The translations under genes were made by a program, and so were the position numbers. From positions 5,456,001 through 5,520,000 of the forward strand of contig OU612075.1 of the NCBI GenBank assembly GCA_914767715.1: a stretch of DNA of 64,000 bases, written 5' to 3'. A model generated the notes under the pieces. The model saw only the letters and a list, made by a program, of their open reading frames with translations, ran no database searches and was not told where the DNA came from. This DNA comes from Membranipora membranacea. Lineage: Eukaryota; Bryozoa; Gymnolaemata; Cheilostomatida; Membraniporidae. Shown here one piece after another: positions 28,179 through 63,788 of this stretch (position 1 is the stretch's first letter; each line of letters opens with the position of its first letter).

Positions 28179-28265
28179 GCCAATTTTTAGTATCATGTTA
28201 TATTCATCAATCGATCTGTTATAACTGAATCTGGGTCTTCAATTGAGGAGTTAGCTTATAGCATT

Positions 28266-43173: not shown

Positions 43174-44467
43174 TTATTCTGCTCTTCCTGAACATCTACA
43201 CTTCCTATAAAGGTATACTTTCTGCTCACCATCTTCTCGGTATGCTTGATCTTGAATCCTCTTCCAGCGACATTGGGAATTGAAATGGTCTTCTGAACGT
43301 TCAGGGTCACGACTGACAATAAAAGCAGAATTTTGGTACATTAGTCTTGCAAGCATTGTTATAAATCAAGTATTTTATGTGTCTAGGACCAGCAACTGAT
43401 TACCCTTGGAATATAAGACCACATCCTGTCGGCACAAGAAGAATAATTTGGATCTTCTTTACAGCTTATAAGAAATTAAATATTTGACACTGCCAGACAA
43501 AACTGCACCAAGGTTATATAAAGATCAGTCAAAAGTCTCAGACCTGGGATATGATACAAATTCATTAATTCAGTACTTACACTTATTAATTCAGTACAAA
43601 TTCATTAATTCAATATTTACATTATACAATGATAACTTGTTATCCTTAGTCATCATTGATTATTTGAAGCAATGGTAAAACCTTATCATCATAGGAAAAA
43701 ACTGTTTACTTTGGGATAACCTTCACAGTTCTACTGGGAAAACCTTACTTTTGTGTTCATTGGGAAAACCTTTTTAGGGATTCTTACAAGAAGAGGGATT
43801 CCCCTTGGTTTGAATTATGAAATCATACAATTCAATGACACAACAATTTGGATAAGATTCAGCATTTAGTATCAGGTTAAGGGTTAGATTAGTAGACATT
43901 CAGGTTGGTATGGTCAATAACTCACATGGTATTCTTCTCTTTGCAATAGCAGTCCCTGGTTAATTTATACTTGTAGGCTGTGCCACCCCGATTATTCCTC
44001 CTATTGTGTACGACAGGAACAGTACTAGTCAAAAATAAGTCAAAAATATACAATTGATCACATAAATATTTGAAATCAATCATTGCGCCTCAGATGGAAA
44101 CTTTTTGTGGAGAGCTTTAACTTGGTCTCAAGTTTGAAGCTGCACAGGTCGTTTTTCATTTTGAGGTATAATTAAGACTTGTAGCCTATGTTTATACTTG
44201 ATATTGGAGACAAATAACTTCTATCAACAAAAACCCAATTGTTCAATGAGAGCATAAAAATTCAAAATACTTTACAAACAATAAATAAACGTACCATTTA
44301 GAACTCAACGAAATAAGATTTACAATCACCAAAATATGGTGATACCCTTACCTCATTTTATAGCGACAGTCTTCACTGAAATGAAGCTCCCCTTGTACAG
44401 GTAGGTAACCCTCTTCTCTCTCATCCGACGTCACCTCCGATGTAAGCCCTGGCGGTATATCTGCCAT
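43174..44467 (-). CDS. Array gene A: two-module HC-CxC protein, short tail
   Basis: Exons 44352-44467, 43926-44024, 43174-43312; 117 residues. The start gives MADIPPGLTSEV, like its paralogues. Module 1: ELHFSEDCRY ... YKYKLTRDCYC. Module 2: DHFNSQCRWKRIQD ... QKVYLYRKCRC, then SGRAE and stop. Both introns are phase 2. No signal peptide or membrane segment, so probably cytosolic or nuclear. Each module offers H-x4-C plus C-x-C, a possible four-ligand metal site (inference). The exon 2 of 99 nt is the longest in the family. It is head to head with gene B, 468 bp away. Family function unknown; no frame defects seen. Confidence 0.82.
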
Positions 44468-44830
44468 ATTGCACGATCAGATGCGGATAATAGTTTAAGT
44501 ATAACAATATTTTCTCAAGCTTTCCAACTGCTCATGCTTAGCTGATCAATGAACTCCTATTAAGCGTGACCAAGAAGTTGCTGCAACAAAGTTATTTTGC
44601 AATCTAAACTTGCAAGCTGAAGCCAACTTATTTTGAGCTTGTCAGCTATTGAGGCTACGGAACTAAGTTTACTCTCTCCCGATTGGCTACCCATGTTCTG
44701 TGGAATACAACGTGCCTAAAATTCCCGTTCGTCCTAGTACTTAATTAATTGATTTTCTGCGTTATTCACAAACCTGGGAAATCCAAGTTCAAAACAGCCC
44801 CCATCGTGCTTTGGAAAACCAATTGGTCAG

Positions 44831-44837
44831 TATAAAA
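44831..44837 (+). promoter_or_regulatory. TATA box of array gene B with upstream GGAAAACC
   Basis: TATAAAA lies 98 bp before the ATG at 44936. GGAAAACC at 44813-44820, directly followed by AATTGG (inverted CCAAT), is 10 bp upstream. The same pairing of elements recurs at other array genes. Confidence 0.7.
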
Positions 44838-44935
44838 TAGAAATAAGCTCCTCCCCAATTCATTCACTAGTGAGACTGTTGACGTGAACACACACAATCC
44901 CTCGGCTCCTTAAAAATAATTTGTGGAGATTAGCA

Positions 44936-46381
44936 ATGTCTATGATTGGAGACCCAGGACCTGGTCTGGATACTGATGTAGGGACTCTTGATGACGTTCA
45001 GACATTGGACCAAGGAGGTCACATGGCCGTTGAGGGGGAGTTGCACCATGATCGAAGGTGTCACTATGTCAGATAGTAAGTATATACCATATCTACTTTG
45101 ATATTGCCGGTTTACAGGTATCAGGGCAGGTAGGTGTAGTGGTTAGAATTCAAGCTTCTCAATCTGAGAGTCGCAGGTTCGAATCCCGGTCACTACCAAT
45201 GCTGCTAAAGGAGGTAAGCTCTCCGGACAATAGCCTAGCTCGCCCACCCCTACCTTGTACAAGGGTGAGCTTATTAGATAGTTGTATTATTGATCTTATG
45301 AAAGCATATTCTCATTGCCCCCAAGGGGCACTGAGTAGCAAATAAAGTGAATATTATTATCTAGCGATCATGATCTATGATCCAAATCATACCCAGCGGT
45401 TGAACCTTAGGGTGCTCGTTCAGTGCACTTTTATAGAATGTTGTGAGGATGGAATACAACACACACCATTATATTCATCATTAACTTTTTTTTCTTTATT
45501 TTTGTTTAGCAAATCAAAGGTGCCTTTAAAAACTGGAACAAACACTGTCTATGCTTACACATTGAGGCAGGCATGTTGGTGCGAAACAAGAAAGTGAGTA
45601 TTATAAGTCACCCACAAATTACTTCTTTCCCGTCATACACGATTTTTTCTCTCTAGGTGGATTTTGATTGGAACTAATCGAAATATTTTTCAAACATATT
45701 TGGTCAAATTTGTTGATATTCGGAAGCAGGGAATTGCTGCTATTAATTTTATTTAAAGACAATTTTCAAGATAATGTAATGTTGCTGTTCGTCTATGTAG
45801 CGGATGACTGCACCAGGGTGCTGTTAGAAAGAGGTTTTTATAGTGACGAGTAGGGTTCCAAGGCATTAGTGCCACTGACAGCTTCAACCCAGCTTGAAGC
45901 ATAGACCTACAAGGCCGGAGCTGCAGTGATTGATGACAGCACCCTCCTGTACAGAGCTATACCATACAGGAGGTTTCTTTTCTCGGCATGCATGATGTTG
46001 TTCTACCTACAAAAGACCCCCATTATTTTAAGCCCTGTTCCAAAGGGACTGTGTGATCAGTCAAAGTCGAAACGACTTTTGGTCCCGGAGGGGGGTTGAA
46101 CCCACACACGGCTGGTCAAATGGCAGACGCGGTTACCATTAAGCCAAACTGACTGACTAGTTACAAAATTTATATTATAATAACGAGATCCTGCCAACTC
46201 TGTTTATAGTGAGCAACCCATTGAGAAGAGAGCTGAGATGCATTTCTCTAGCAGATGTGAATGGAAGAGAATAGAGGATACCGTCCTCCAATCAAACAAC
46301 CAGAATGTGTATCTCTACAGAAAGTGCAGATGTTATATCCCAGAAACCTACGACGTCACTTATCGAGCACCTAATCAGTAA
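44936..46381 (+). CDS. Array gene B: two-module HC-CxC protein, long tail
   Basis: Exons 44936-45075, 45510-45593, 46210-46381; 131 residues. The start reads MSMIGDPGPGLDTDVGTLDD, like gene D. Module 1: ELHHDRRCHY ... YAYTLRQACWC. Module 2: EMHFSSRCEWKRIED ... QNVYLYRKCRC, followed by a 19-residue tail rich in Y/P (YIPETYDVTYRAPNQ). Both introns are phase 2; exon 2 is 84 nt, the commonest size in the family. Intron 1 contains a tRNA-derived SINE and intron 2 a second one on the opposite strand. Closest to gene D and the pseudogene C; together they form the subgroup with MAVEGELH and a Y/P-rich tail. Intact. Confidence 0.82.
45126..45360 (+). mobile_element. tRNA-derived SINE in intron 1 of array gene B
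   Basis: Head at 45129-45198 resembles a tRNA: A-box-like TGTAGTGGTTAGAATTC and B box GGTTCGAATCC, with 5 of 7 acceptor pairs left. The unrelated body ends in AATAAAGTGAATATTATTAT. Too worn in the acceptor stem to be a working tRNA gene. Confidence 0.7.
46062..46160 (-). mobile_element. tRNA-derived SINE head in intron 2 of array gene B
   Basis: On the minus strand: A-box-like TTTGGCTTAATGGTAACCG, B-box-like GGGTTCAACCCC. The body probably continues to about 45840. Different sequence from the SINE in intron 1. Confidence 0.55.
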
Positions 46382-47120
46382 CTGCCAGAAATCAGATACC
46401 CAGGCCCGTAGTTCTAGCGGTGGCAGGGAGGCACTGAATCCCCTAGAAAGCTAAATATAGTGGCTTAAGAACACTATAATTGAATAATCTACGTCAGAAT
46501 CAGCTCCTCTGCAATTTCCATTTGCTAATTATATGCCTCAAACTGCTTAGGGAGGAACTAACAGCACCTTTCTGGTGATGCTTTGGACTCGCGTCAGACT
46601 TTTGCCTCCCCTACCATTTTCTTCACTACGGTCCTGCTAGCATTTAAATGTTGGAATTGTGTATAAAGTATTTATCCGAATATCGATATGCAATGGATAT
46701 GCTTAGATCTTTTAATTGTTGATTTAATTATTTTGTTCTTGGTCCGAACTACACGCTCTCTGAAAAAACTCTTGCCATGGGGAGTTCATTTGATGCACTA
46801 ATCTCGCTTACTTTCTAAAGCAGACAAATTTTAAATAAATGTTTGGTTACGTTGTTATCTGGTTATGAATAAAAAACTCTTTTAATTCAAATAAAATATT
46901 TGGTAGTATTTCATGTTCCATGGCTCCCATCTGATGTTTACTTGTCTAGTCTCACACTTTTTAATCAGGATCATTAACACAACAAAAATCTTGCTAACAA
47001 ACTTGGCAAGGTATTTGCCTAATAAAAAATATGTTCCCCAATAAGTTAATTTAGCTTGGAAAACCTTAATGATAACAATGACATAGTCATGCTATTCTGG
47101 AAAACCTCAGTTTCACATTA
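46382..47120. other. Spacer between array gene B and pseudogene C
   Basis: Two GGAAAACC elements (near 47058 and 47099) and no coding sequence. From about 47110 it aligns with the 3' flank of gene D (50436 on), the edge of a duplicated block. Confidence 0.4.
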
Positions 47121-47459
47121 CTCACGTGTCATTGATTTTATCAGTTACATCATCATTATGCAGCGTGGAATACAACTTGAGAAAAACCTTGACTGAGTTG
47201 GGAAAACCAACTGAATTCAATGTAATTACAAAATACAAATCAACTTCCCTGAACTGAAGCAGCCTCGAGAATTTTGACTGCACCAAGGAAAGAAAATAAC
47301 AGCCATCAATCAGGGGTATATATAACAAATTACATTTATGGCGAACCTTGATGGAAGGATGGAGGCAATTCAGAGTTATAGTTTTGATAATCCAGTTTGG
47401 GAACTCTATAGTTTCATAGCATAGCGCAAGCTTCATACATAAGCGTGTAACTTCTAGTG

Positions 47460-47960
47460 ACTGTGCTAGAGTAGTAGTACTGGATGTTTGTGCTGTACTC
47501 TGTCACTAGAATAAAGCAGCGGCATTTTCTGAAGAGGTAGATGTTCTGGTTTTGTGTACTGAGTGCCGTGTTTTTAATTTCTTTCTACTTACATTTGTTT
47601 GAGAAATGCATCGGTTATATGGATTTGGGTCTGGAGTTGATTTTTAAGGCTCAATCCTTAGCGTGTCTGATTGTGAACTCTGAAAAAATATCGATTGTTT
47701 ATTTTTTATTCTCCCGCATATCTGCATCTCTGATCGCAATGAAGTTGAAGTCTTTAGCCACAAGGCCCCCACATGTCTGCACTTCATCTGCAGTCCAAAC
47801 ATCAGTATAGCATTAGTAAACTATAGTGCCATTGGTAAACTACCTATACTATCTGAAATATTTGCATCCTTCATTGCAATGAAGTCCACCCTTCACAGCC
47901 ATTACATATCTGAACATCCCAAAATTGGCATCCAGTACTGGTCCGATATCACATGTTTAG
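47460..47960 (-). pseudogene. Array pseudogene C (relative of gene D)
   Basis: 47850-47960 matches exon 1 of gene D, but two bases are lost after ATGTG so the frame stops at once, and the donor GTAAGT has become GTATAG. 47708-47800 is a second partial copy of the same exon (ACTGATGTTTGGACTGCAGA ... GAGATGCAGATATG). Exon 2 is not found. 47460-47625 matches exon 3 (GATGCATTTCTCAAACA..GT, CCTCTTCAGAAAATGC) with stops. The flanks on both sides also match gene D. Its TATAAAA (48056-48062) and GGAAAACC (48080-48087) are still intact. Confidence 0.8.
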
Positions 47961-48248
47961 TTTGTTTTCTCAATTTTCACGAGAAATGTTATAGTGTTGG
48001 TGTGTTCACCTCGGGAGTTTCACTAGTGACCGAATGTGGGAGGAGCTAACATCTCTTTTATACTGGCCTTTGGGAAATTGGAAAACCCTGATTCCTACCG
48101 TTTGTTGAGTAACGTAAGGGAATTTAGGTTTTGGGATAATCCAAAAGTGTCAGTAGCCTATCAGACAGAGCTACCTAATCTATAGCACCCAGAAGATTTC
48201 GAAAGCGATTACATGTACAGGAATATTCCAAGATTAGTAATAGCCAAT

Positions 48249-48274
48249 CCAAGGAGTTGTCTCTAACTCCTTGG
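48249..48274. repeat. Short perfect hairpin
   Basis: CCAAGGAGTT, 6-nt loop GTCTCT, AACTCCTTGG. It sits in the shared intergenic region of the C/E pair. Confidence 0.75.
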
Positions 48275-48405
48275 CCAATTAGAAGAGCACACCTAATATC
48301 ATGACCACATGATCATTCAGGACCTTTCACTTATGAAATTGATCGCAATTTTGAACCTAAATTCAGTGCTAAGCTTGTGTCGGTTGAGGCTACATCAACT
48401 TAAAC

Positions 48406-49445
48406 ATGGTGGATATTGGACCAGGGTTAACAACTGACATCGGTGATTTCGGCGTATCTCGTAACACCGGATATCTGCCATTAATAGGAGAAGTACACTA
48501 TGATACGAATTGCAAATTTATCCAAAGGTAAGTTGGTAATATTTTCCTATTCTCTTTACAATCTCATATAACGTTCCTGTTCATCGATAACAATGTCTAC
48601 CTGGTAATAAAACGTCTATCTGGGCTCAAAGAAAGAAACAACAATTTTAATTGCAGGTTTGCTCTTTTGTGTCAGCGATTTTCCCTTCTCACTGAATTAT
48701 GTGAATGACTAGTGTTACTGGATAGTAGGTTGTTCAAGTATTATAATGAAAAACAAACAGAGACCCCTTCGAGTGTATTTATTCCTGTCTAGTCTTCTTT
48801 ACTAGGTTGCGATCTTAAGTGAGTTGGTCACTACAATATTCAAATTTCAAAACAGTTCTATTTGTTAACCTGAAATAAAAGATCTGTAACGTATTACGTC
48901 TTTTTTGTTGAGCACATTACAGTTCTCCCCCCCCCCCTCCTGATATGGATGCATGTGGATTAGGTCTTGCCTTTTTTTGTGAGATAGCAATATGGAATCT
49001 TAAAAAGGGGAGTACAGTTATATTTCGTAAGGTTATACTAGGTCGTCGAGGTCAATGCTCACTCGATTTTATTTTTGTGCCTCTTATGATGCTTTACAGC
49101 CCGTACGTGCCTGTAACTAGCCGGATATCAGGCCTACCTATACGATGCTATGTCTTGACGCGACACTGCTCCTGCAAACTTCAGTTAGTAGATTTCTCTC
49201 AGATACTCATTTAATCCTGAATGCGTTAAATTATTTCAATGATCAAACAACTGTGATCAGTATATATCTGGTTTTTTGTGGCTTACGTGGAGTTGACTGA
49301 TTCTTTATTTTGTAGTCTACCATCCTTCCAAGAACAGCATTATCTCCCAACATGCCACTGGGCTAGAACAAAAGACATGGTACCTGACTTCAATGGTGAT
49401 CAAAAAGTGTACCTCTATCGAAAGTGTGAATGCTTCGAAATATAA
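48406..49445 (+). CDS. Array gene E: two-module HC-CxC protein, short tail
   Basis: Exons 48406-48527, 49100-49183, 49316-49445; 111 residues. The start reads MVDIGPGLTTDIG, then GYLPLIGEVHYDTNCKF (module 1 start) and VLTRHCSC (module 1 end). Module 2: EQHYLPTCHWARTKD ... QKVYLYRKCECFEI-stop. The second intron uses GTTAGT as donor, less usual but with the right phase 2. It stands head to head with pseudogene C (446 bp). No clear TATA box; GGAATATTCC and two CCAAT-like motifs lie near 48222-48280. No signal peptide. Closest to genes G, J and A. Confidence 0.82.
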
Positions 49446-49840
49446 CAATCAAGTCAAACAAAATAACGGAATATACACAAATAAATGATCCGTCATGTTG
49501 TTCTAGTGACCATATTTGATTCTAAGTCTCTTTTACCATTAAGCTGTAGTTCGCTTTTTTCTGGGTTGTGGCTTGCTTGACTAAATGAATTCATACTACA
49601 ATTCATGGTGGCACCTTCGTATTATGTTTTTTTGGCAAAATAATCAGATCCATACTATGGTTTCATTGGTCAAAAAAAGTGGGAGGTGCTTCACTTCTAT
49701 TTGATAATCAGATACATTAGGAAATGGGAAAATCCTGATTCCTTCCACAGCGCTTTGCGTCAATAATTGTTTGCACACTGCTGACGTGATAAAGAATTTG
49801 TTTATGACAAGTCTTATATGACAGGAAACACAATCGGATC
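49446..49840. other. Spacer after gene E
   Basis: No gene seen; AT-rich with CCTGATTCC-type sequence near 49735. Confidence 0.35.
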
Positions 49841-49849
49841 AGATGGGGA

Positions 49850-50100
49850 ATTTGTCTTTTGGAATTTCCCAAATTTTCAGAAGCCGATCAGACAGCGGGA
49901 CTCCTAGGACATTCCTAAAACCGGTACGAAAGTTGGTGAGGTCATGATTGCATAGTCGTACCAGGTATCATACTCGTTTCTCGCAATTATTTTGGTAAGC
50001 AGTCAATGATTATGCGGCGTTGTGTTTGCTTTCCACAATAATACAGCTGTGGAATGTTTAAAAAAAAACCTAAAATCTGCATCAGGAATTTCTCATCTAC
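49850..50100 (+). promoter_or_regulatory. Orphan copy of an array promoter without a gene
   Basis: GGGGAATTTGTCTTTTGGAA at about 49843 onward and CCGGTACGAAAGTTGGTGAG, CATAGTCGTACCA align in order with the promoter of gene G (GGGGAATTTGTGTTCTGGAA, CCGGTATAAAAGTAAATGAA, CTTAGTCATACAA). The TATA box has mutated to TACGAAA and no exon 1 follows. GGAATTTCCC at 49861-49870 is a perfect Rel/NF-kB consensus. Confidence 0.6.
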
Positions 50101-50762
50101 AGACTAGTTTTTCCGTTATGTTTATAAGCTTATAAGTCATAAGCCGAATTTGAGGGTTAGTTACGGCATTTTTGGAAGTAACACTCCATCTCAATGTGAA
50201 ACAGCTGGTACTGAAGATCCGTATCACCTGGATTATTCTTTCTCGCTCAACAAAAAAATCACTATGTCGTATTTATTCTTGGAACTAAAATCCACACTGG
50301 TCCGCACACTATCACTTTCCTTCAACAGGATATCTCAGATAAGAATTTGCATCTCAGGACTCGCTCAACAAGCTAACTGAGCTTTGAAAAACTTAGTAAT
50401 ACCAATGTCATGATACTTTGGAAAACTCATATCCACATTACTCATGTGTTATTGATTTTATTGGTTTCATCATCATCATTATGGAGTGGAAAATAAATAA
50501 GGAAAACCTTGACTGAGTTGGGAAAACCAACTGAATCAAAATTACAAGCTGACCAAAGATATTTACATTTCAACTTGAAAACAAAACTACAGACATGTAT
50601 CAGGGAAAGATTATATAACTATAACAGATTAATTGTCATCCTTGAAAGAAGGTTCAAGATTGTAGTTTGGGTAGAAAGTTCTAAGATGATTTAATTTTTG
50701 ATATTGTGAATTTAAAAATTAAATTGATAGTTCAAGCAAGTCAGTAATAAACTGTCCGTGTT
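50101..50762. other. Spacer, 3' flank of array gene D
   Basis: From about 50390 matches the 46.9-47.4 kb flank of pseudogene C (for example CCTTGACTGAGTTGGGAAAA). No gene. Confidence 0.4.
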
Positions 50763-51829
50763 TTAGTGGTAGTACTGGTTGGTTGCGTTGTACTCTGTCA
50801 CTGGCTGATAGCAGCTGCATTTCCTGAAGAGGTAGACATTCTGGTTATGACTGCTGAGTGCGGTGTCTTTGATTCGTTTCCACTTACACCTGTTTGAGAA
50901 ATGCATCTCCGATCTGATGATCCCCTGGTTTCTACAAAAAGAAATCGTAATTAATTAGAATCCAATAAGGTAATATACTGTGAGAATTTAAAATTATGAC
51001 GCCATTGTTGACTATATCCAGACTGTTTTCTTTATCAAGAATGTACAGGCACTCTCATTTATCATTCGATTCCGCAAAATGCTGAAATCTAAACATCACC
51101 AAAAAAACTAGTATTGAGGTGATTCACAGATGTTTACTTCTCGGCCTATTGGCTAAGATCGTTAAAATCGCTTCTCCGCCTATTGGCTAAGATCAAAGTG
51201 TCACTGCCAATGGCCAATTAGTGCCAGTTCAGTTTTGGCAGCTCGCTGCACACCCATGATTAGGAGGTCCTCCATGGCCCCACCTCTAGGATACATTCTA
51301 GTTTTCTAGGATGCACCTTGCTTCCCTCTTTAGGGGCAGCCCAATCTTCTGTTTCTTACTGAACAGCAAGATCAAAGTGTCTTTGCCAATCCCAGCCCAA
51401 CCTCTGTTTTGACATAATCACTTACTCCTGAACATTGCAGTAACAGACTCGTCTCAGAGTGTATCCTCGTACAGTGCTCCCTCCGCTCACCATGTCAACC
51501 GTCTGGTTACTACAAAAAATAAAACAAAAATTACAGTGAAACCTGGCTTGCATTTTGTGCATCAATCATTTAAGATTGGTTATGTGATAACTTATTACGA
51601 TTACGAGTTCACACAAACCGTTGGCGTCATGAGGTTTCAAATTTATTCGCAAAAATCTAAAAATCCCGTGAAGTTGATTGATATAGTATTAGTAAATTAC
51701 TTACTATCTGACATATTTGCATCTCTGGTCGTAATGAAGCTCACCCTCCACAGCCATATGACCTTGACATGTCTGCACATCATCTATAGTCCCCACATCA
51801 GTATCCAGTCCCGGTCCGATGTCACACAT
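50763..51829 (-). CDS. Array gene D: two-module HC-CxC protein, long tail
   Basis: Exons 51705-51829, 51426-51509, 50763-50931; 125 residues. The start reads MCDIGPGLDTDVGTIDDVQT. Module 1: ELHYDQRCKY ... YTLRRVCYC. Module 2: EMHFSNRCKWKRIKD ... QNVYLFRKCSC, then a tail YQPVTEYNATNQYYH. Introns phase 2, exon 2 of 84 nt, all splice sites canonical. Intact and very close to gene B in sequence. It stands head to head with gene G, 538 bp away. Confidence 0.84.
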
Positions 51830-51946
51830 TGCTGTCTTTAGTTAGCTTTCTCACTAATCACGAGTATAGTTTTAAGCGCTTATAGAGTTGTTGTGTTCGC
51901 CTCGAGAGTTTCACTAGTGAATGAATGTGGGAGGAGCTAACTTCTC

Positions 51947-51978
51947 TTTTATACTGGCCTTTAGGAAATTGGAAAACC
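51947..51978 (-). promoter_or_regulatory. TATA box and GGAAAACC element of array gene D
   Basis: On the minus strand, TATAAAA (51947-51953) lies 118 bp before the ATG, with GGGTTTTCC (complement of GGAAAACCC, 51971-51979) 17 bp upstream of the TATA. Pseudogene C has the same layout. Confidence 0.7.
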
Positions 51979-52232
51979 CTGATTCCTTCCGCAGCGCATT
52001 ACATCGGCGATTATTTTGCAGATATGGTGTAATACCTGTATTCATAAAAAGCATTGTTGGACGGGGAATTTATGCTGTGGAAAACTCCAAAGATTACACA
52101 AGCCAATCAGAAAGAGCTGTATGAACAATCAATAGCAGTTTACGGGGAATTTGTGTTCTGGAATATTCCAATATTCCATTAGCCAATCATACGGGACATC
52201 AGGAAACACTCTTCCGGGATTCCAAGAGCCGG

Positions 52233-52239
52233 TATAAAA
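52233..52239 (+). promoter_or_regulatory. TATA box of array gene G
   Basis: TATAAAA 128 bp before the ATG; upstream lie GGGATTCC, CCAAT-type AGCCAATCA and GGAATATTCC. Confidence 0.65.
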
Positions 52240-52366
52240 GTAAATGAAGTCACAATGTCTTAGTCATACAACTCTTGATCTTCAAGTAATAACAAGTTAT
52301 CAAATTGATAAAACTTCAGTGTAAAACTTAATAATTTACCTAAAACAAAATCTAAAAATTGAAAAC

Positions 52367-54072
52367 ATGTCAGACATCGGGCCAGGACTTACTACAGACG
52401 CTACTGAAACTGAAACATCTACTGGTTACCTACCTGTCCAAGGAGAACTTCATTATGAGGAAGACTGTCAATATATCAGAAGGTAAGTGTTATTACTCTT
52501 CTTTCTTTTTCTCTTTTTCTATGCGCTAGGTCTTATATAACCACCTTGTTTAACGGGCACCTTAAGCACAGGTGGCTTATGTTGGGTGGTACCCTATACC
52601 CTTGCCCGCCGTGGCTTCCATTTTTCAAAGAGGCAGAGGGGATCTTTATATTGCATGCAAGCCCACAGTAGACCTCCTGTATTTATGGTACTGATCCGAC
52701 CAGACCTGGCCAGGATGAATGGCTGGCCAGTGCCAAATCAGAGATGCCAGATGGCGCCGGGAATCGAACGTGGATCTTAAGATCACAAGTCCTTATCCTT
52801 AACTGCCAGACCAATCCTCATACTTCACGTTCTTCTGCAGTGCTCTAAGTAAGGTCAAACTGTGGTGGGGTCTGATCTCCCAGTTGTTCTTTCTGGATGG
52901 CCTTAGATGAAAATATTTTACATTTCTCTAGTTATATCCCTCATCAATTGATACAGAAAAATATGGGGCAGCTAACAAGAGCAAAATCTTATAATCACAC
53001 AAGGTAAGAATATATGTTGTAGCGGCTCTATATTCCTCCCTGAGATCAACAATATTGGCCATAGAGATAGGATGAATTTGAGGATTAAATTTTATAAAGT
53101 AGTTCATTTAAATTTGTTCTCCTTTTTTAGCGGTCCCAGGATAGTCTTATACAGAGGCAGACAAGTTCGAGCTTATGTTCTGACAAGAGAGTGTGCTTGC
53201 CAAAGAAGACTGTAAGTAAATATATCATTCGATTTCATCCAAGTGATCTCATGCAATATGATAACTTGTCAGTGACTTACATTAATGCTAATGATGAAAT
53301 TCCTCTGTGCTCCAACTTTGTAATCTTGGAAATCCCTGCTCTTTGGAATCCTTTGATTAAGAAAGTTTTCCTATGTTGGTTTTCCAAACTCATCAAGGGT
53401 TTCCCATTATGATATGGGATTTCCATATTGCTGAGAGATGTACATACCTAGGAAATGGGAACTGGGAAAGAAGTTCAGACATACAATTAACTTGGGCAAC
53501 TCAAATCAATTGGCTTGACTAGTGTAGATCAACCTCATCCAACAATTTATCTTGCCGAGCCAATTTTTGCTTTTATTTTCATTATTGTTATTAGAATGGT
53601 TCGGTTTCAAGCACAGTACATGGTTTTCCTTAAAAGCAATTCAGCTGGAATTTTATGTGATGAATAAAATAATTTTTTTCAGAACAGATCACTCACCAAA
53701 CCTTGATTTTGTCATGGTATAGCGAACACTGTGCATACGCACAGTTCAAGTAACATATGTGAGATCATAAATAAGTTTAGCCAATTGAATGTGTTATTGG
53801 AGGAATGGCCTCAAGGTGGACAATCACTGTTAACTTTTGTATCAATATCTATTTTAATATTGTCAAACTTTTTCAGAACTGATCTTATTTGCTTTGTTAA
53901 TGCTGTCGATAATAGCCTATTTTAAAACATGCGTATTTGTAGACCTGCAGATGAAGAGTATCATTTCGATTCTAAATGCAATTGGCGGAGAATCAAAGAT
54001 CAGGGATTTGACTTCAATGGTGAGCAGAAAGTATACATCTATCGACGTTGTGTGTGCCAAGAGCCGCGCTAA
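52367..54072 (+). CDS. Array gene G: two-module HC-CxC protein, short tail
   Basis: Exons 52367-52482, 53131-53211, 53943-54072; 108 residues. The start reads MSDIGPGLTTDATETETSTG. Module 1: ELHYEEDCQY ... RAYVLTRECAC. Module 2: EYHFDSKCNWRRIKD ... QKVYIYRRCVC, then QEPR-stop. Both introns phase 2. Intron 1 carries a tRNA-derived SINE (minus strand). The first exon has the same length (116 nt) as genes A and J; the last (130 nt) equals that of gene E. The start is supported by alignment of MxDIGPGL with the paralogues and by the TATA box at a suitable distance. Intact. Confidence 0.84.
52562..52818 (-). mobile_element. tRNA-derived SINE in intron 1 of array gene G
   Basis: Minus strand: A-box-like TCTGGCAGTTAAGGATAAGG, B box ACGTTCGATTCCC, then a body ending near 52562. 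The plus-strand open frame at 52586-52780 is only a shadow of this repeat. Confidence 0.65.
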
Positions 54073-55499
54073 GTATGGTGACAGGTATGAGTCTGGCAAA
54101 CTAAACAAAGACCAAACACAATAGAAAACTCTTGAGAAAACTAAACTGGTCCTTGACAGTGTACAGTGTACATATATAGCATGATATTGGTTTATTGCAG
54201 CATGTAACAGTTTCCCAAAAACTGTTCGTGCTTTTACTTGATTAATGTCATTTTTCGCCAATTTTCTTCAATCTCACTTCTCAGTTTGTTGGCGTATGGG
54301 GACTGTATTAGCCTAGAGTCTACCGACGCACCAACGAACTCTTTGATCTTAAAAAAGGTTCAGTTACATTGTGTGACCCATTCTCAGTAACGTTTGATGT
54401 ATTACATTTAAAGATTTTCATTGCATGTGCTCATGTCAACTGAGAGCCGCTGTGGGCTAAGAATTAACTTATTCATGGTACCATTGTGGTTAAGTTTATC
54501 GATTTACTTTCCTAGGCATATTATGTTATGAATTATCAAAGAACAAAATAAAACTTTGGTCGAACATGAACCACACCAACAAATTTTATAAAAAGGGCTG
54601 TCTAAAATCTTAGCTGGACAAATTTAAATATTGGCTAGAGTTTAGTTTAGCTAGTGAAGGGTCAATATATAGAGAGGGTGATACAATGTTAGCTTGCATT
54701 GATAGATAGCTATTTAAAGCATGCGCGAAATGAAGAACTTTCATCCTGTGAATCTCCTCTAGGGTACATGGTGCATACAATCTGCCTCTTTGGCTCAATT
54801 CCATGTTGCAAGATTGCTGTCAGAATCTTATAGTGGTATTTGCTTCATTGCAAGCTAATGCGAAGTTAGCTTGCAATGAAGCGCAATATATAGCGTTATC
54901 AAAATAGTAATGGATTGAGGCATGGTATTTACACACAGCTTACATTACATTGCTTTTAATTAAGCCCATATAAATGCATCAATCAGTGATCGAGAACCTA
55001 TGTATCCGTTTTGATGATGAGAAATAAATAATCTACATCTATGATTGAAATTGTTGCACCTCTATGCAATCCGTTAGATCTTTAATTGAATGTAGATCTC
55101 TAATTTTTTATATTTTAATTAAAAATGCAAAAAATATGATACTGTTATCACTATTGAGCGTGTAGAGTTGATAAAAAATTAGGGAGGCAAGATTCAAGCT
55201 GTTTTATAAAACCATTCATAGCTTAACCTAATAACACATAAAATATACCTTGAAATAAAAACCAACTACATTTCATATATTATTTTTATTGTCTTTCTAT
55301 GTATAACAGATGGGGAGTATGAAAATAATACCATAGATTTAAAGTTTAGGGCAGTGGCACACTTCTAACAAAAGGCCATACAGTTAGATGAATTCGTACA
55401 AGTGCCTTTCCAGCATCCTTAATTTTTCAGCTGTCAGTTTTTGTGTAGAATTTCAACAGTAAAACTAGATATATAATTGCATTCTGATCTCCATTACAA
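54073..55499. other. Spacer between array genes G and H
   Basis: No member of the family and no other gene seen. Contains a 17-bp perfect hairpin at 54842-54882 and AT-rich sequence. Confidence 0.4.
54842..54882. repeat. Perfect 17-bp inverted repeat
   Basis: GCTTCATTGCAAGCTAA, loop TGCGAAG, TTAGCTTGCAATGAAGC. Confidence 0.9.
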
Positions 55500-56788
55500 T
55501 CAGTCAAACTTTTGCCAGAGCTGCTGCTGAAATAAGTAGGGCTGTAGCGCTGCCTCTGGAAGGTAGCAGTGACAGTATCTGACCAGGTAGGTCTTTTGCT
55601 CCTTGTTAGTCAGCACTTTGTCTTTGATTCTCTTCCAGTGGCAGTCCTCATCGAAATGGAACTCTGGCCTTGTACCCAGTTTGCTGTGTGAGGAAAGATA
55701 GAAATACATGTAGTTCATGTGAGGATGTCCAATGTGTGGATTCTTTAAATGTCATCATCTTATGTCAGCTAAAGTATGTTTTGGTTTTGTTGGTACTCCG
55801 ATAGTCTAAGTGCTCAGACTGCCTCAATTGGAGTTGGTGGCAATACATTATCAATGAAAGTCAGCCTTTTCAAACAGGCTATGATATGATACAAATTAAA
55901 TACCATCATTCCACACACAAAATTGATACTGGTAGGAACAAAGAGTTAGTCTCTAACTCTTTGGTAGGATCAGTTGATGATGAAGATCACAAAAACAGGT
56001 AATTAGGGATTTGACATAAATTTCAAAGCAAAGCTAGAAACAGTTGGATATTTTAGGAGTTGTCCTCTTACAAATCAAGAGGAGACAATTTGTAAACATA
56101 ATTCTCAAGTGAAATGTTGATCTTTGAAATGAGCTCATAACAGCTTGGCTTTTTCTTTCATAAACAATTTCAGAGGTGTTTAATGCTGCTGTGGGCCATG
56201 TGATAAGGGATAAAATACTGGCCACTGATAAGACTACAGCACGTAATCACGTGTTCTTCACTCACCTCTTTAGCCTACAGTGGCAATCCAGCTCAACAAA
56301 ATGTGTCAGAGTCAGTTCTCCCTGCTTGAACTCATAACGCCTCTTACTGCAATTGAAGATAAAACTAGAATCAACTATGAATAAATAGCAGAGTATCCCA
56401 CAATGCAACACAACTTTCCAGCGTTATAAGCAAAAGCAGACTAGGGATTACATTTATCAGATTGATATAATCTTGCTCGGAGATTAAGGCAAAAGTGTAT
56501 TATGGGCGTTTGCTAACATACTCTAACAATAGGAAAACTCTATCATTGGTATTGCGATGTATGTACTCGAAGTCCTAAATAATATGTTTCTCCATTTGAC
56601 TAGAAGATAAAAGTGTCACACTTCTTTATTTACTACTTTACTTACTATTTACGGTAAGTGCAGGCATGATGATAGTGCTGTTCGCCTTCTATCGGTAAGT
56701 AGCCTTGTTTTATTCTATACTCTCCCTCCTCAGTTTCCACATCAAATGTGCTCAAAACAGTGTCAACTCCAGGACCGGTCTCTCCCAT
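55500..56788 (-). CDS. Array gene H: two-module HC-CxC protein, long tail
   Basis: Exons 56646-56788, 56266-56346, 55500-55683; 135 residues, the longest in the array. The start reads MGETGPGVDTVLSTFDVETE. Module 1: EQHYHHACTY ... HFVELDCHC. Module 2: EFHFDEDCHWKRIKD ... QKTYLVRYCHC, then a tail rich in L/Q (YLPEAALQPYLFQQQLWQ). Forms a subgroup with gene I (YLVR-K/Y-C-x-C, LPEGAL/LPEAAL tail, exon 1 of 143 nt). Introns phase 2. It has no head-to-head partner in view: the next gene upstream, I, points the same way. Two short hairpins lie in intron 2. Confidence 0.82.
55940..56089. repeat. Two short hairpin elements in intron 2 of array gene H
   Basis: 55940-55962 is perfect: AAAGAGTTAG, TCT, CTAACTCTTT. 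56055-56089 is imperfect: AGGAGTTGTCCTCTT ... AAGAGGAGACAATT. Both resemble the hairpins at 42491, 48249 and 60054. Confidence 0.55.
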
Positions 56789-56866
56789 TTTTTTTATTTT
56801 ACTGTTTAATAAACTAGTACGCCGTATGCTAAACACATAATGACGGTATAAATGCGGTTTAACTGA

Positions 56867-56898
56867 CTTTATAATACTTGGCATCAGATGGGAAAACC
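56867..56898 (-). promoter_or_regulatory. TATA-like box and GGAAAACC element of array gene H
   Basis: Minus strand TATTATAAAG (56867-56876) about 80 bp before the ATG, with GGTTTTCCC (complement of GGAAAACC, 56891-56898) 14 bp upstream. Confidence 0.55.
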
Positions 56899-58143
56899 AA
56901 ATATTAGTCAGCAATACGGGTAGGCATTCGACCAATAATATTGCAGCGCTGATTTTAATGGCGTGGGAAACCATATCAGGGGAAACCCACATCACGGTCA
57001 TATTTAACTGCAACGAGACCATGTAAGATTTATGGGAAACCGGAATTCCACTGATGTTTATGCTTTGTAAAATAATGCTTTGACTTAATTTGAGTATAAA
57101 ATCATACTATGTATTGTCAAAATCATTTTAGCTACACCTTTGTTTTTGATTGGTTCTAATTCTAAATTAGTATGAAAAACTCAAAGATATGGGACATGGG
57201 ATGAATATAGCTGTTGGGTGAACTTTGATGGTTGCTGATTAGCTTTAGATAGCTATGGCTAACCCTAAAGGTATGCGGCCTTGCAAGGATATTTCTGATA
57301 AGTGAAGTTTGATTCCTGTTTCAATATTGCAGCGGTTATACTTTATTGATTACCAAAAAATAAACAGACAGCTCTATATTGTATAATTGAATAAATACAC
57401 AAACACTCTAGAATGAATACTTGTAGGATGTTAAATGGCACAAGAGCTAGTATTCTCAAGGGATACTGTTGTTTTTTACAATGATCATAATATTGTGTGT
57501 AATGGACCTGCATATGCATGATAAATTGGCAATACACTTGCATTAAAATCGATAGGACTACTCATATGTTATCATATTTTGTTACTTGCTTTCATATTAT
57601 ACACCTCCCTCCCCCCCCCCCCCCATCTTCTATCCATTTACAGTTATGCATAAACTGCCAATATCGGAGTTAGTCAGATCAGATTAAAAATTACATCATC
57701 ATGTTATTGACCATGCAATATTGGAAAACCCAATCATTGGTCTTGTCAGCTATTGGCCATAGCAAAACAAAGACAACCAATCACAGCTCAGCTGAAAATA
57801 AATGCTGGTTTTCCCAAAGGATTCTGTAGGCTTTACAATGACTGTGCAGTACATATTGATAACGCTCCTCTAGATTATAAATTTAGAACATGCGTTCATG
57901 GCCAGTTAAGTTTATTGTGAAACACTTTGCTTACATACAGTATAAAATAAAACTTCTATTTTAATTTTGCGATAAACTAAAACAATTGCTAAATGATAGT
58001 CTGCTCCATTCTTCGGGAAGAAACAGAAAGATAATATATATTCGTTTGCTTTTTATGATGCTGTAAAATGCGAATATGATACTTTGAGATTAGAAGAAAA
58101 GACACATGCTCCAGGTTAAATGTTATATGTATGTATATTAGTG
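56899..58143. other. Spacer between array genes H and I
   Basis: No gene seen. GGAAAACC-type elements at about 57723 (+) and 57800 (-) and a C run of about 15 near 57612. Confidence 0.4.
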
Positions 58144-58976
58144 TCAATGATGGTTGCGCCACTGTGCGACCTCCAAAGCTCCCTCAGGAAGAAAACATGT
58201 ACACTTCCTCACAAGGTAGTTCTTCTGATCTTGGTGGGTGTAGGTTTGATCTTTGATTCGTTTCCATCGGCAATTTTTGGAGAAATGCAACTCCGTTCTG
58301 GTACCAAGGTTTCTTAAAAACAAATATACATTAAATAGTATTTCATCAAACTTACAGACGGTTCAAAATATCTCCACAACTTCTATGTCAAATGTCCCTG
58401 GGTTAAGGCTGAAAGCCGGCAACCTGAGAAATGATGTCGTATTATTTCATTGAGAATCTAGAAAACACTACGAGCTTGTTATCTTTATATGGGTATTCAT
58501 TTATTTTCCAACGGTACATACTACTCATTATAACATACATAACAATGTACTAACCGCTTCTGCTGGCAATAACACTTCAACACCATACTATAGGTCTGCA
58601 CCTGTGCGGCTCCATTCCTGTATGACCATGGATAAGGGCCACTAAAATAACACGAGAAAATATTTTAGGGAACTATCACAAATGCCATAAAAGTTCTAAA
58701 GGCAGAGCTACTCTAGGGTGACGACATACCATGTTCAAGAATTTTTCCACTGCTGGCAAAATAAAGATGTTTTCAAACCTGATGTTTGTATGTATTTTCT
58801 GATTTTCTGGTTTTTGATGTGATGACAACTTACTATCGAACATATTTGCACTCGGTACTATGATGTAGCTCTCCCTCGGTGGCCAGATATCCTTGCTCCC
58901 TTCCGTTGAGTTTCGGGTCTTGGACCTCATCAAATGTGTTCAGAAATGTATCGATTCCGTGTCCCAGCTCAGGCAT
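58144..58976 (-). CDS. Array gene I: two-module HC-CxC protein, long tail
   Basis: Exons 58834-58976, 58555-58641, 58144-58312; 132 residues. The start reads MPELGHGIDTFLNTFDEVQD. Module 1: ELHHSTECKY ... YSMVLKCYC. Module 2: ELHFSKNCRWKRIKD ... QKNYLVRKCTC, then a tail FLPEGALEVAQWRNHH. Introns are short (about 190 and 240 bp), both phase 2; intron 2 uses GTTAGT as donor. Head to head with gene J, 468 bp apart. TATAAAA on the minus strand is at 59098-59104, 122 bp before the ATG. Confidence 0.84.
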
Positions 58977-59097
58977 GTTTACGATAGTGTCTTGAATTTG
59001 TTATCCGTGAACCGCTGGTATTATGTTATTATGTTATTGACTGTAATTCTCTCAGTTGATATCTACTCAAAATAAACTCAGGTAAGCGGTAAACTGC

Positions 59098-59122
59098 TTT
59101 TATACTCCTCACATGGTTTTCC
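59098..59122 (-). promoter_or_regulatory. TATA box and GGAAAACC element of array gene I
   Basis: Minus strand TATAAAA at 59098-59104 and GGAAAACC (read as GGTTTTCC on the plus strand) at 59115-59122, 10 bp apart. A second weaker GGGAAACC is near 59136. Confidence 0.7.
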
Positions 59123-59290
59123 AATTTCACGTAAAAGTTGGGAAACCAGTTTGCTTAGTCAGCGTAGTAACTAGCCAATGATTGCAGCGGTATTATGAGG
59201 CAATCTATTGGAAAGATGATTTTGGAAAGCCTAATTTCCAAAACAAGCAGCCAATCAGAATTGTGAATGAGATTGCTCATAGAAGAATGC

Positions 59291-59315
59291 GGAAACCCTA
59301 CCCAGCAGTATAAAA
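59291..59315 (+). promoter_or_regulatory. TATA box and GGAAACCC element of array gene J
   Basis: GGAAACCC at 59291-59298 and TATAAAA at 59309-59315, 10 bp apart; the ATG is 128 bp past the end of the TATA. Confidence 0.7.
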
Positions 59316-59443
59316 GCAAATTCAGCGGAAGCTTAGCTCACACGTGATTCAACTACACAGCAGCAGCAACTAAACTAGACTAGGAAAAGTGAGAGAGATC
59401 ATTTTGAGAGTTTTTCTTAATATCAGACAGTCAATTGTTCAAG

Positions 59444-60313
59444 ATGGCCGGGCCAGATGCTGGTATTAACATTACATTTACTGAAGAGGCAAACCAAGGA
59501 GCATACTTACCAGTGGTTGGTGAGCTACATTACAGCCTGGACTGCTCCTACGATAGAAGGTAAATCTCACACACAATCTTATTCATTTAATTCATTTGCT
59601 TGTTAGTACGATAGTGGTTGATCCATTGATACATTGATGAAATGAAGTAGTATGTGATACTGACACCTCAAGAAGGTTTGCTTGGTATTTTAGGGATAGA
59701 TTCATTGCAAAGAAGGAAATGCATACCCAGTCTCATGTGACTCCCATTGATCCTCTCATATTGATTGATAGAAATCGTCAATAATGGTGGTTTGTACTTG
59801 TTTATATTTTCTCTATTATATTGCAATATTGTATGTGACTTAGTTTACAAAATTCTCATGTTTATTCATAGCAAAGAGCCAAGGCAAGTTATCCACAACG
59901 GGCAACAGGAGAATGCATATGTACACACAAGATTCTGCACCTGTAAGGCAAACATGTAAGTCTTTTACCACTTCTATATAATTGTTAATCTTCAACACAA
60001 CAAATACTAAATGGTGAATTATTTGACAAAATTCCAACAAATTGAACTACATTAGGAGTTATCAACACCTTCCCTTAAAGGAGACAACTCCTTGAGAGAA
60101 ACTGATTGTCATAATTTTTGTTGTTATAGTATTTTATAATGGATGATATCTTTGTTCATTGTGCTAATCTTTGATTTTAGGCCTCAGGTGACTGAGCACC
60201 ACTTTAAAGTTGGCTGTAAATGGATGAGAGTGAAAGATTCTACATTTGATTACAATGAGAGACATCAAAAGGTCTACATCTACAGAAAATGCCAGTGTCA
60301 AGAGCCTTATTAA
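59444..60313 (+). CDS. Array gene J: two-module HC-CxC protein, short tail
   Basis: Exons 59444-59559, 59872-59955, 60181-60313; 110 residues. The start reads MAGPDAGINITFTEEANQGA. Module 1: ELHYSLDCSY ... YVHTRFCTC. Module 2: EHHFKVGCKWMRVKD ... QKVYIYRKCQC, then QEPY-stop, like gene G's QEPR. Introns phase 2, exon 2 of 84 nt. An alternative ATG upstream is not in frame. Partner of gene I. Intact. Confidence 0.84.
60054..60093. repeat. Short hairpin-like element in intron 2 of array gene J
   Basis: AGGAGTTATCAACACC ... GGAGACAACTCCT; an imperfect member of the hairpin group. Confidence 0.5.
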
Positions 60314-61723
60314 CCATTATGTGATCGGTGTAACACTCCCTTAGCAATGTTATATACCTTCATTATTTTTCTGTAAATAGTTTGAATAACAAAAGTAATA
60401 ATTGACAAATTATTTCATTGCCATTATCTGATTTTCTTCAATGTGCAGACTTTTTTTTAATTTTTAGCCATTGTACTTAAATTGGAGGATTATGGTTACT
60501 TTTAAAACTGTAGCTAGCATCTGAATAAAGTTATCATAACCACTACAAACTAAGAAGTTGAATTGCTTCAAGTTATTTGAAGAATGCTTCCCGGAAATCC
60601 CATTTCTCATAGTTTGGTAAATATTTTCTTCCCGCTCACTTAGGAAACCCTTGGTCGGTTGTAAATTGTTAATGATGCCCAAGGCAACACACAATGACTC
60701 CATCTAAGACAGTAAGGCCACGGATTTGTTGAAGTGCTCACAAGTAATTCTGTCAGCATTCTGGGCATTTGCAGAAATAAGGCAGTCTGAAAAATACGTG
60801 AAAATGTAATATAAACGTAATACTACTGACAAATCCTTTGGGTTTCTGCATAAACCCGAGGATTGTAAGGAGCAATGATTTGGTGTGTGGTATGGAGATT
60901 CCTCATTTTTATAGCGCTGTTTTATCCTTTTGATTTGGCCAGGATTTGACAGCCAATTTTGAAATTTAGCTTGTATACCAACCAGCAAAGATTTATCAGT
61001 GAAATTGAAGCCCTTCACTTGCATGAAAGGAGATTGAAGCGGCAGCAAAGAGCACAAACTACGAGCGAATAGACAAAGTAATCGGCAGCTTTACCTATCT
61101 TTGCATGTGGCCTCCTATTTTAACCAACATTTGTTTTAACAGAATTGATCCATGTCATCCATTATTATGACTGTGTGTAATCAACTGGCATTCAGCTAAT
61201 TGCAAGCAATCATAAGGGATGATAGTATTACTACCAAGTCACACTCAAGCGTGAATTTGATCGCTTAATTTTAATCAAGTCTAAACAGCCCGGTCGTTTT
61301 TTCGATGTCAATAAAATACAAAGTATGTTGTGTTTATTTAATATGATCCTGATTTTTTATTTATGAGTTTATAAGCAGAAGTAATTAATCTAGATAAAGC
61401 ATAAACAAAACATCACCTCTCAAACCAATCCAGTTGATAGTAAACGTGGACATTTGGCTATATATCATGATTACTCAAAGACAGTCAGCTAAAGATAGAC
61501 ACTCTGGTAGAACTCATGATGTCCTGGTGAAAAACTGCCTATCAAAAACTATCTTTTATAAATATATATGATTATGCATATCAATACTTCACTAATGGTA
61601 TTTTTAAAAAGTTTCTATTGTCTGCCACGTTCTTAAATGATGTGTATTTTCTTCTTAATGCATGTTTTGAACGGTTTTCAATAATTATGTTCATATCATT
61701 ATCATCTTATTGCATATATACAT
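60314..61723. other. Spacer between array genes J and K
   Basis: No gene seen; the minus-strand open frame at 60704-61057 has no recognisable motif. Confidence 0.35.
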
Positions 61724-63103
61724 TTATTGGGTTTGTGGCTGACAGAAACATCGACGATACAGATATGCGTATCCAGTTATTTCATCAACAACTCTTTTCC
61801 ATTTGCAGATATATTTATTGTGTTCTTCCTCATAATCAGAGCTACAAAATGGATTAATTCAAGTTGTTAAATTATGCATGATATACAACTAGATAACAAG
61901 TTGATATGTAGTCAAATTATAATTTTATATGATGAGAGGTAAGAGGTCATCCTTGCTCAAATATATTAAATTAATCAGGTTTCGCACTGTTTGGTACACT
62001 GATTATTTAGCAAGAAATATATAACTCACCGGTATCTCCCACAGCGACAGATCCTTTTGTGGTAGTACGTTCTTTTAATACCTTTCCATTCAGAACTGAA
62101 ATACCGAAAAGAGTTTCAAGATCATGAAACACAGCAATCTGAGAGCTTAGGCTTAGGCATATAAGGCGCCCTGGAGTTTTGTAAGCATTTTAAGCATTCT
62201 GCAAATTTTTGTAAGCATTTTGGAAAATGTAGGTTGGCAAGTCTGCAAGAAGACAACTCTACACACATATTACAATGCAGGCACCCAGTACAATGAACTT
62301 GTATACACTATACATACATTTAATGTACATTGTACATGCATGAATTGAACGCATGAAATTCGCGCCAAAAAGCGCGTGAAATTTGCAAATATTAAAATGA
62401 GCCACCCAAAAAGCCAAAATGAGCCGAGGTGGCTCATGAGCCATAGGTTGGGCACCCCTGCACTAGTGCAATTAGCTAATAGTGCATGTTAAGTTTGATT
62501 CAGTTTGTAATATATAATGAACTATGTTGAGACCAAGTTTCATCAAATTCTGTCAAGTATTTATCGAATTATAGATGTCTGAAGGCTTTATGTAGTGTTG
62601 TAAGCCGTTCATAATAATCACAGCAAAAGCATGAGTAATAGCTATATGTTTTATGATGGTATAGTCTCTATTTCCAACCTCGTCACATAAAATCCATAGC
62701 ATAATGGTTAAGATCTGTACTGAAGTGCACAAGGTCTCAGGTTCGTGCACGCAGTATTTTGACCATCACTCTAGTAGTTAAAGATGCAGACCTCTGACCC
62801 GACTTGACCCTAACATGACCCGACCACAGAAACCCGTTGACTCGACCCTGAATACAACACTAATGGTTATGGCCAAGTCTTCTGGAATTTATCCTCTTGC
62901 CATAACTTACTATTTTCTGAATCTTGAAATTGAGTTTCTCATAAAGTTGCCACTTTTTTTTCTGCTACTTTTATTACATACCCATTTTCTTTGAATTTGC
63001 ATTGCAGACTGCTATGAATTTCAACCTCCGTTTTGAGACGACCTTCGACGGTCTCTACATTGCTTGTGATGATATGATTTCCATCTGGTGGATCTCGCGG
63101 CAT
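61724..63103 (-). CDS. Array gene K: divergent two-module HC-CxC protein, short tail
   Basis: Exons 62982-63103, 62030-62095, 61724-61841; 101 residues. The start reads MPRDPPDGNHIITSNVETVE. Module 1: EIHSSLQCKF ... YYHKRICRC. Module 2: EEHNKYICKWKRVVDE ... YAYLYRRCFC, then QPQTQ-stop. It lacks the GPG-L/V-xT start and has the shortest exon 2 (66 nt), yet phase 2 is kept at both introns and all eight ligand residues are present. Intron 1 is long (about 890 bp) and holds a tRNA-like repeat. Next to gene L and on the same strand. TATAAAA at 63283-63289. Stopping exon 2 at its own in-frame TGA would give a one-module protein, so alternative ends are possible. Confidence 0.75.
62690..62765 (+). 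mobile_element. Worn tRNA-like SINE head in intron 1 of array gene K
   Basis: A-box-like TAGCATAATGGTTAAG and B-box-like AGGTTCGTGCACG. Too worn to name its source. Confidence 0.35.
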
Positions 63104-63282
63104 TTTTTCAGTTGAGTGAGAATGAAGAAAAAGCAAATCCAACAACAAGAACTTATTCTAGTCCTCAGCTGGTTGGAATAGGAAAAGTGTAGTAAAAAAA
63201 ACACTTATCTCCTATATTTCGAGAGCTCCTGACAGGCAGAAGGTGTGTTAGCAGATGAATCATGACAGATGCCGGGCCGGTC

Positions 63283-63289
63283 TTTTATA
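63283..63289 (-). promoter_or_regulatory. TATA box of array gene K
   Basis: TATAAAA on the minus strand about 180 bp before the ATG. GGGAACCC and GGAAAAACC lie further upstream (63310-63405). Confidence 0.5.
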
Positions 63290-63664
63290 GCAGGCCTTAG
63301 GAAATCCAGATCGGGTTCCCAAATTTGTTCGGGTGTCATCATATTACGCAGCATTGCAAAAAAACAGGACGGGAATTTACAAATTCCAATTTGGAAAAAC
63401 CAACTATTGGAAAAAAATCTTGATAAAATATATGAGCTGTTTGGAAACATGACATGGAAATTCCTAACGTCATAAATATTATAAAAAATGTACATTCGTA
63501 GTCTTTCATCAAAATTTTAGGATAGTTTGTTTTCTCTTGTTTATTGGTTATAAAGATCCTGTCTTCCAAAATCAAAATGAAAATAAAAACAAAAACTCTA
63601 ACATAGGAACTTGTGATTCATGATGATAATAAGTTTGGTTTTACACAGGGTTGAGAAATCCTCT

Positions 63665-63788
63665 TTATGGTCCCTCACAGAAACATCTTCTATAGAGGTA
63701 GACTTTATTGTCACCTTCATCCTGGATTTTCTTCCAATGACATTCTAAAGAGGAATGCTCTTCTGTGGTGTCAGGACCATATTCGTAC
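63665..63788 (-). CDS. Array gene L, last exon only (continues past the window end)
   Basis: Exon 63665-63788 after the acceptor GTCTGAAG; it begins in phase 2 like all last exons here. It encodes EEHSSLECHWKKIQDE ... NKVYLYRRCFC, then EGP-stop, so module 2 of a short-tail member. Exons 1 and 2 must lie above 64,000 on this strand; no exon 2 is seen up to the window edge. Confidence 0.75.

Follow-up and report, generated by a model that had tools for sequence, protein, structure and literature searches.

Bomanins of Drosophila are secreted and carry a signal peptide, and the SCRiPs of corals are secreted and disulfide-rich. Zinc fingers of the WRKY-GCM1/FLYWCH type present their ligands in the order C...C...H-x-H, while the BIR domain is spaced C-x2-C-x16-H-x6-8-C. 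We compare these systems with a cluster of small genes in a stretch of 64,000 nucleotides (nt) from the bryozoan Membranipora membranacea (GenBank assembly GCA_914767715.1, contig OU612075.1, positions 5,456,001 to 5,520,000 of the forward strand), called the window throughout. An earlier note on this DNA had described a cluster of small two-module cysteine genes with one pseudogene; spliced models rebuilt from the DNA confirm that description, and the existence of the gene family is certain. To it the present analysis adds the head-to-head pairing of two gene types, alpha and beta, and a recurrent promoter element.

A multigene family with an internally repeated motif

The cluster occupies positions 43174-63788 of the window (~20.6 kilobases, kb) and contains nine genes with all three exons (A, B, D, E, F, G, H, I, and J), the third exon of a further gene (K), and a pseudogene (C). 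The complete models encode proteins of 101-135 residues, and all 18 of their introns are GT-AG and in phase 2. A previous count of ten coding members, one of them partial, stands as nine full genes plus K; K itself (63665-63788, minus strand) is better read as cut by the window. Its third exon starts 212 bases from the window edge, and second introns exceed this length in seven of nine family genes (range 132-731), so K is probably a gene truncated by the window end rather than a partial gene.

All nine proteins carry the module 1 motif H-x4-C-x-[YF]...C-x-C, and all ten third exons carry the module 2 motif H-x4-C-x-W...Y-[LI]-[YFV]-R-[KRY]-C-x-C; the shared motif and the fixed spacing within H-x4-C and C-x-C, as first noted from the sequence, are thus seen in every copy. 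One histidine and three cysteines, invariant across these copies, form the candidate ligands of each module. Seven of the nine proteins contain exactly six cysteines, all within the pattern, which leaves no spare cysteine beyond three per module alongside the one histidine; D has seven and E eight. Residues invariant in the nine proteins (gene F numbering) are M1, E27, H29, C34, C60, C62, E71, H73, C78, W80, R82, D85, Y97, R100, C102, and C104. The two modules are themselves homologous (hhalign probability 92.8, expectation value [E] 4e-7), and several module 1 exons are weakly picked up by module 2 profiles (E 0.01-0.53). In leave-one-out trials against the six-frame translation, a profile of nine third exons recovered the tenth in every case, at E from 4.9e-21 (gene E) to 3.4e-8 (gene J); as a control, a ten-exon profile run on five resampled windows gave 0, 0, 1, 0, and 0 hits at E<=0.1.

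Averaged over all 36 gene pairs, codon positions 1, 2, and 3 differ by 0.474, 0.411, and 0.655. Synonymous divergence (dS, by NG86) is saturated and hence undefined in 32 of these pairs, and nonsynonymous divergence (dN) ranges from 0.30 to 0.98. Because of this combination, the copies read as old duplicates held by purifying selection and not merely as recent duplicates.

Searches of Pfam-A with seven proteins, ten third exons, and then all nine proteins found nothing better than E 0.026, and NCBIfam, PHROGs, and PDB sequences likewise returned no better row. The viral and prokaryote contigs scanned held no relatives of the family. A Pfam check had been proposed in the earlier note, which called the family unrecognised; the check returned no closer match, and the label is supported within these four libraries, to which our own statement of no known family is limited. 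Given that coverage, the family may already be described and annotated in some other resource, a reading compatible with any of the others discussed below; set against it, Pfam-A covers most described animal domains and came no closer than the value above, and we consider prior description unlikely.

Localisation, predicted fold, and candidate zinc sites

Judged from hydropathy, upstream stops, and TATA position rather than with a dedicated signal-peptide program, no signal peptide was seen. Eight of the nine genes have an in-frame stop 9-54 nt 5' of the ATG (318 nt in G), and the highest 11-residue Kyte-Doolittle mean near the N-terminus is 0.87. In seven genes a TATA box precedes the ATG by 85-186 nt, and in six of the seven the start is the first ATG past TATA+30; G has one earlier. 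These observations uphold the previous claim that the proteins lack a signal peptide. With three cysteines and one histidine per module, no signal peptide, and starts situated just past stops and TATA boxes, we favour an intracellular protein with a single zinc in each module over a disulfide-bonded one; that the proteins bind zinc is likely.

Small, cysteine-containing, multicopy, and divergent proteins whose promoters look inducible could also be disulfide-bonded extracellular peptides, for example antimicrobial ones, released without a signal peptide. Both modules contain an invariant histidine and an odd number of cysteines, which argues against this reading, as does selection that is purifying, not diversifying; moreover, the upstream in-frame stops and TATA positions speak, for most genes, against a concealed exon encoding a signal peptide. 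We regard such peptides as very improbable.

Structure prediction, also proposed earlier, yielded a hairpin as its best model and no match to a described fold. AlphaFold2 was applied to module 2 only. A first run gave a predicted local distance difference test score (pLDDT) of 62.3, with strands at residues 7-9, 17-25, 28-36, and 38-40; in a second run, headed by gene I, the best model (pLDDT 75.7) was a hairpin with strands at 14-23 and 28-37. In the best hairpin model, H7 and C12 stand just before the first strand and C37 and C39 at the end of the second, and, reasoning from strand positions and not from coordinates, the four candidate ligands would sit at the same end of the hairpin. Comparison of the predicted module 2 fold with PDB folds returned no match.

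In each of the nine proteins, the first 25 residues are acidic (net -1 to -6) and the remainder basic (+2 to +8). Such a charge distribution, together with the W, R, D, Y, and R conserved between the ligands, would suit nuclear regulators whose modules are zinc fingers for DNA or RNA, with basic hairpins (WKRIKD, YLYRKC) that contact nucleic acid and an acidic tail that acts on partners. However, neither a DNA-binding family in Pfam nor a fold in PDB was matched (a nuclear signal was not sought), and we think this role improbable, if less so than that of an extracellular peptide.

Head-to-head pairs and the promoter element

Four pairs of cluster members are arranged head to head (A/B, C/D, E/F, and H/I), and each of the four joins one alpha and one beta member. 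Alpha gene A (43174-44467, minus strand; exons 44352-44467, 43926-44024, and 43174-43312; 117 residues; spliced model and alignment) is separated by 468 bp between start codons from beta gene B (44936-46381, plus strand; exons 44936-45075, 45510-45593, and 46210-46381; 131 residues). Pseudogene C, of beta type (47460-47955, minus strand, ends approximate), has a frame-shifted exon 1 followed by a second, degenerate exon-1 copy, and an in-frame stop in exon 3; about 450 bp separate it from alpha gene D (48406-49445, plus strand; exons 48406-48527, 49100-49183, and 49316-49445; 111 residues). Beta gene E (50763-51829, minus strand; exons 51705-51829, 51426-51509, and 50763-50931; 125 residues) faces alpha gene F (52367-54072, plus strand; exons 52367-52482, 53131-53211, and 53943-54072; 108 residues) across 537 bp, and beta gene H (58144-58976, minus strand; exons 58834-58976, 58555-58641, and 58144-58312; 132 residues) faces alpha gene I (59444-60313, plus strand; exons 59444-59559, 59872-59955, and 60181-60313; 110 residues) across 467 bp. 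Beta gene G (55500-56788, minus strand; exons 56646-56788, 56266-56346, and 55500-55683; 135 residues) has no partner; J (61724-63103, minus strand; exons 62982-63103, 62030-62095, and 61724-61841; 101 residues), a divergent gene, and K are more distant.

Beta proteins continue for 15-21 residues past the last C-x-C and their intron 1 splits a codon as TA-T or TA-C, whereas alpha tails measure 3-5 residues and the split codon is AG-C or AG-T. Phylogenetic analysis groups the beta members B, E, G, and H with support of 88/82, and these together with C in the third-exon tree (80/75). Mixed composition in four of four pairs, taken together with the tree, suggests that the unit of duplication was the pair, and our preferred reading of the arrangement is duplication of a single ancestral pair. 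A 97-bp segment at 49660-49756, which has no intact gene beside it and shares 76% identity with positions 51908-52000 in the E/F interval, is a possible relic of the promoter of a lost pair.

Near this segment, at 49940-50040 (plus strand), lies a 33-residue open frame that coincides with no known exon and weakly matches module 2 profiles (E 0.09-0.37), either by chance or as a decayed copy.

The promoters of the family share a short element. The most enriched 8-base word, GGAAAACC, occurs 16 times in the cluster as compared with 2 in the other 43 kb and 0.6 in shuffles. Its general form, GGWWWWCC (GGW4CC), is found 23 times in the non-coding DNA of the cluster against a mean expectation of 3.7 (at most 9 in any of 100 resamples); the remaining 43 kb hold 4 copies, where 7.0 would be expected. 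This form ranks first of 136 NN-W4-NN classes by the ratio of cluster to rest. The 9-bp form GGRAWWYCC gives 13 occurrences in the cluster versus 1.4 shuffled; outside the cluster the figures are 3 and 2.7. A GGW4CC-like site stands at most 35 bp upstream of 8 of 32 TATAAA[AG] boxes in the cluster and of 0 of 29 elsewhere in the window. All eight of these boxes belong to family promoters, which is to say eight of ten promoters.

The distance from site to TATA box takes only a few values. At 10 bp, GGAAAACC precedes TATAAAA in B (44813-44837, plus strand) and H (59098-59122, minus strand), a relaxed form, GGAAACCC, precedes TATAAAA in I (59291-59315, plus strand), and GGATTTCC precedes TATAAAA in J (63283-63307, minus strand). 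At 17 bp, GGTTTTCC is followed by TATAAAA in C (48056-48087, minus strand) and E (51947-51978, minus strand), and by TATAAAG in G (56867-56898, minus strand). In F (52216-52239, plus strand), another relaxed form, GGGATTCC, lies 9 bp before TATAAAA. Further sites are grouped in intron 2 of A (43674-43770; three GGW4CC and one GGW5CC) and intron 2 of F (53328-53629; four GGW4CC). Blastn (E<=0.01) aligned the promoters of F, G, I, and J to none of the others and that of H only to B, over 27 nt; because these promoters nonetheless keep the site, the element appears to have outlived the promoter sequence around it. The near-fixed spacing of GGW4CC to TATA offers a simple handle for finding more family members, or targets of the same factor, in the genome.

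Directly downstream of the TATA box, the promoters of B, C, and E (44840-44900, 48000-48060, and 51880-51950) also have in common a AGCTCCTCCC-like element and a palindrome, TCACTAGTGA. Three palindromes in the cluster give six counts of the 9-base core of TCACTAGTGA, which is absent from the rest of the window.

The cluster site fits the Dorsal consensus GGGWWWWCCM with its KGG/CCM flanks, which are also counted, as these appear in extracts of two sources (PMC2626603; PMC3009591). By this resemblance alone we call the element Rel-type, and we put the involvement of a Rel-type factor at about an even chance. The same proteins could instead be under a non-Rel factor that binds GGAAA or GGW4CC (NFAT-like or Ets-like), with stage- or cell-type-specific expression and a developmental or structural function for the family. 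Many of the sites do share a GGAAA half-site, and the 10-bp kB forms are not clearly enriched (GGGRNWYYCC 2 vs. 0.8; GGRNNYYYCC 5 vs. 3.3; GGRAANNYCC 3 vs. 1.3). However, the enrichment of GGAAAACC over its shuffled expectation exceeds that of GGAAAA (36 vs. 27, counted over a region of double the length), and the enrichment falls on a two-sided class, GG...CC, as for the site of a dimeric Rel-type factor. A non-Rel factor with such a function is possible, though we find it doubtful.

Proposed explanation and comparison with known systems

Taken whole, the reading we prefer, and to which we give slightly less than an even chance, is that intracellular proteins with zinc hairpins make up this lineage-specific family, that they are encoded as alpha/beta pairs behind Rel-type inducible promoters, and that they serve in immunity or stress. 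Each small protein would consist of an acidic N-terminal tail and two homologous beta-hairpin modules, every module probably holding one zinc through its histidine and three cysteines. This multigene family would have grown by repeated duplication of a head-to-head alpha and beta pair with a shared promoter of ~450-540 bp; because the promoter is shared, the two proteins are probably made together, and they may act as partners. A Rel/NF-kB-type factor would switch the genes on through the GGW4CC-type element near the TATA box and through extra copies nearby. Since most promoters look as expected for genes switched in this way, the products most likely work inside the cell as effectors or regulators in immunity or stress, induced by a stimulus. 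A role in immunity and a partnership between alpha and beta proteins are offered as hypotheses.

Several observations weigh against this reading, in addition to the kB counts and the lack of a PDB fold match given above. The tree does not unite the alpha members A, D, F, and I in a supported clade, and pairing that is mixed throughout would arise by chance in ~23% of cases (24 of 105 matchings of four alpha and four beta members). The promoter pattern was framed after the promoters had been seen: with strict GGW4CC, which omits F and I, the count falls to 6 of 32 against 0 of 29, the relaxed form adding those two, and a loose GG-N4/5-CC gives 10 of 32 against 2 of 29. Neither A nor D, both alpha, has its own TATA box bearing such a site, and the eight sites are not independent, in that the promoters of B, C, and E align together and share recent ancestry. 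The four remaining models of the second AlphaFold2 run have pLDDT of 48-57, and the best of the first run, at the lower score reported above, places the strands somewhat differently. Finally, an extract of one source describes early-animal NF-kB as having p50/p52-like specificity, with GGGAATTCCC as gel-shift site (PMC5700166), and many cluster sites are the shorter GGAAAACC, unlike that site.

In its strongest form, the proposal would be an undescribed H-C-C-C zinc hairpin used twice, in an obligate alpha/beta system that is duplicated as pairs with bidirectional, Rel-controlled promoters, and thus an intracellular inducible defence family without a known counterpart; we think it unlikely that all of this holds. 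If true, it would introduce a novel type of zinc-binding domain together with a family of paired, inducible genes, for which the promoter, protein, and partner hypotheses are each directly testable.

Other features of the window lie mostly outside the cluster. A BEL/Pao-type retroelement at 5496-13439 has Peptidase_A17, DUF1759, and DUF5641 matches above cut-off and RVT_1, integrase zinc domain, and N-terminal SAP-like matches below it; its long terminal repeats (530 bp) are 99.8% identical, so the insertion appears very recent. Several related copies of a ~600-bp block occupy 26178-31278, those at 29854-30439 and 30690-31278 being 95% identical, and two open frames tried from these blocks had no Pfam match at 0.01. 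A fragment of a Mutator-like transposase lies at 35580-36362 (PF20700, E 6.1e-13). The neighbour of the cluster at 39361-41380 (approximate, minus strand) looks like MED4, a Mediator subunit (Pfam Med4, E 3.7e-5; its 23.9 bits fall short of the 26.9 cut-off), and its open frame contains an internal duplication (39673-39743 and 39937-40006, 81%). Within the cluster, intron 1 of B holds a stretch resembling a short interspersed nuclear element (45120-45345), spotted by eye, with a tRNA-like internal box (GGTTCGAATCCC); ARAGORN called no tRNA in the window.

Compared with described systems, the cluster combines partial likenesses with consistent differences. As in the BIR domain, a cysteine pair followed by E-x-H...C-x-[aromatic] can be read across both modules, but the spacing differs and varies among copies. 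The Pfam model of that domain (PF00653) has no match at E<=10 in the nine proteins or ten third exons, and the assignment was rejected. The WRKY-GCM1/FLYWCH beta-sheet zinc fingers resemble the modules in having a zinc site, putative here, at the end of a small beta-sheet and an aromatic residue beside a ligand; this assignment too was rejected, given a ligand order of H-x4-C...C-x-C and no Pfam match. Secreted cysteine-rich peptides of defensin, SCRiP, or Bomanin type were likewise set aside, no N-terminal signal peptide having been seen. The SCRiPs of corals, an early-branching animal group, are also small cysteine proteins in multigene families, whereas the proteins described here combine the absence of a signal peptide with three cysteines and one histidine per module. 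That absence, together with an invariant His/Cys pattern, separates them from the Bomanins, a small induced cluster under Toll/Dif control. The two clusters are alike in their small tandem genes, their Rel-type sites (putative here) near the promoter, and their turnover in copy number.

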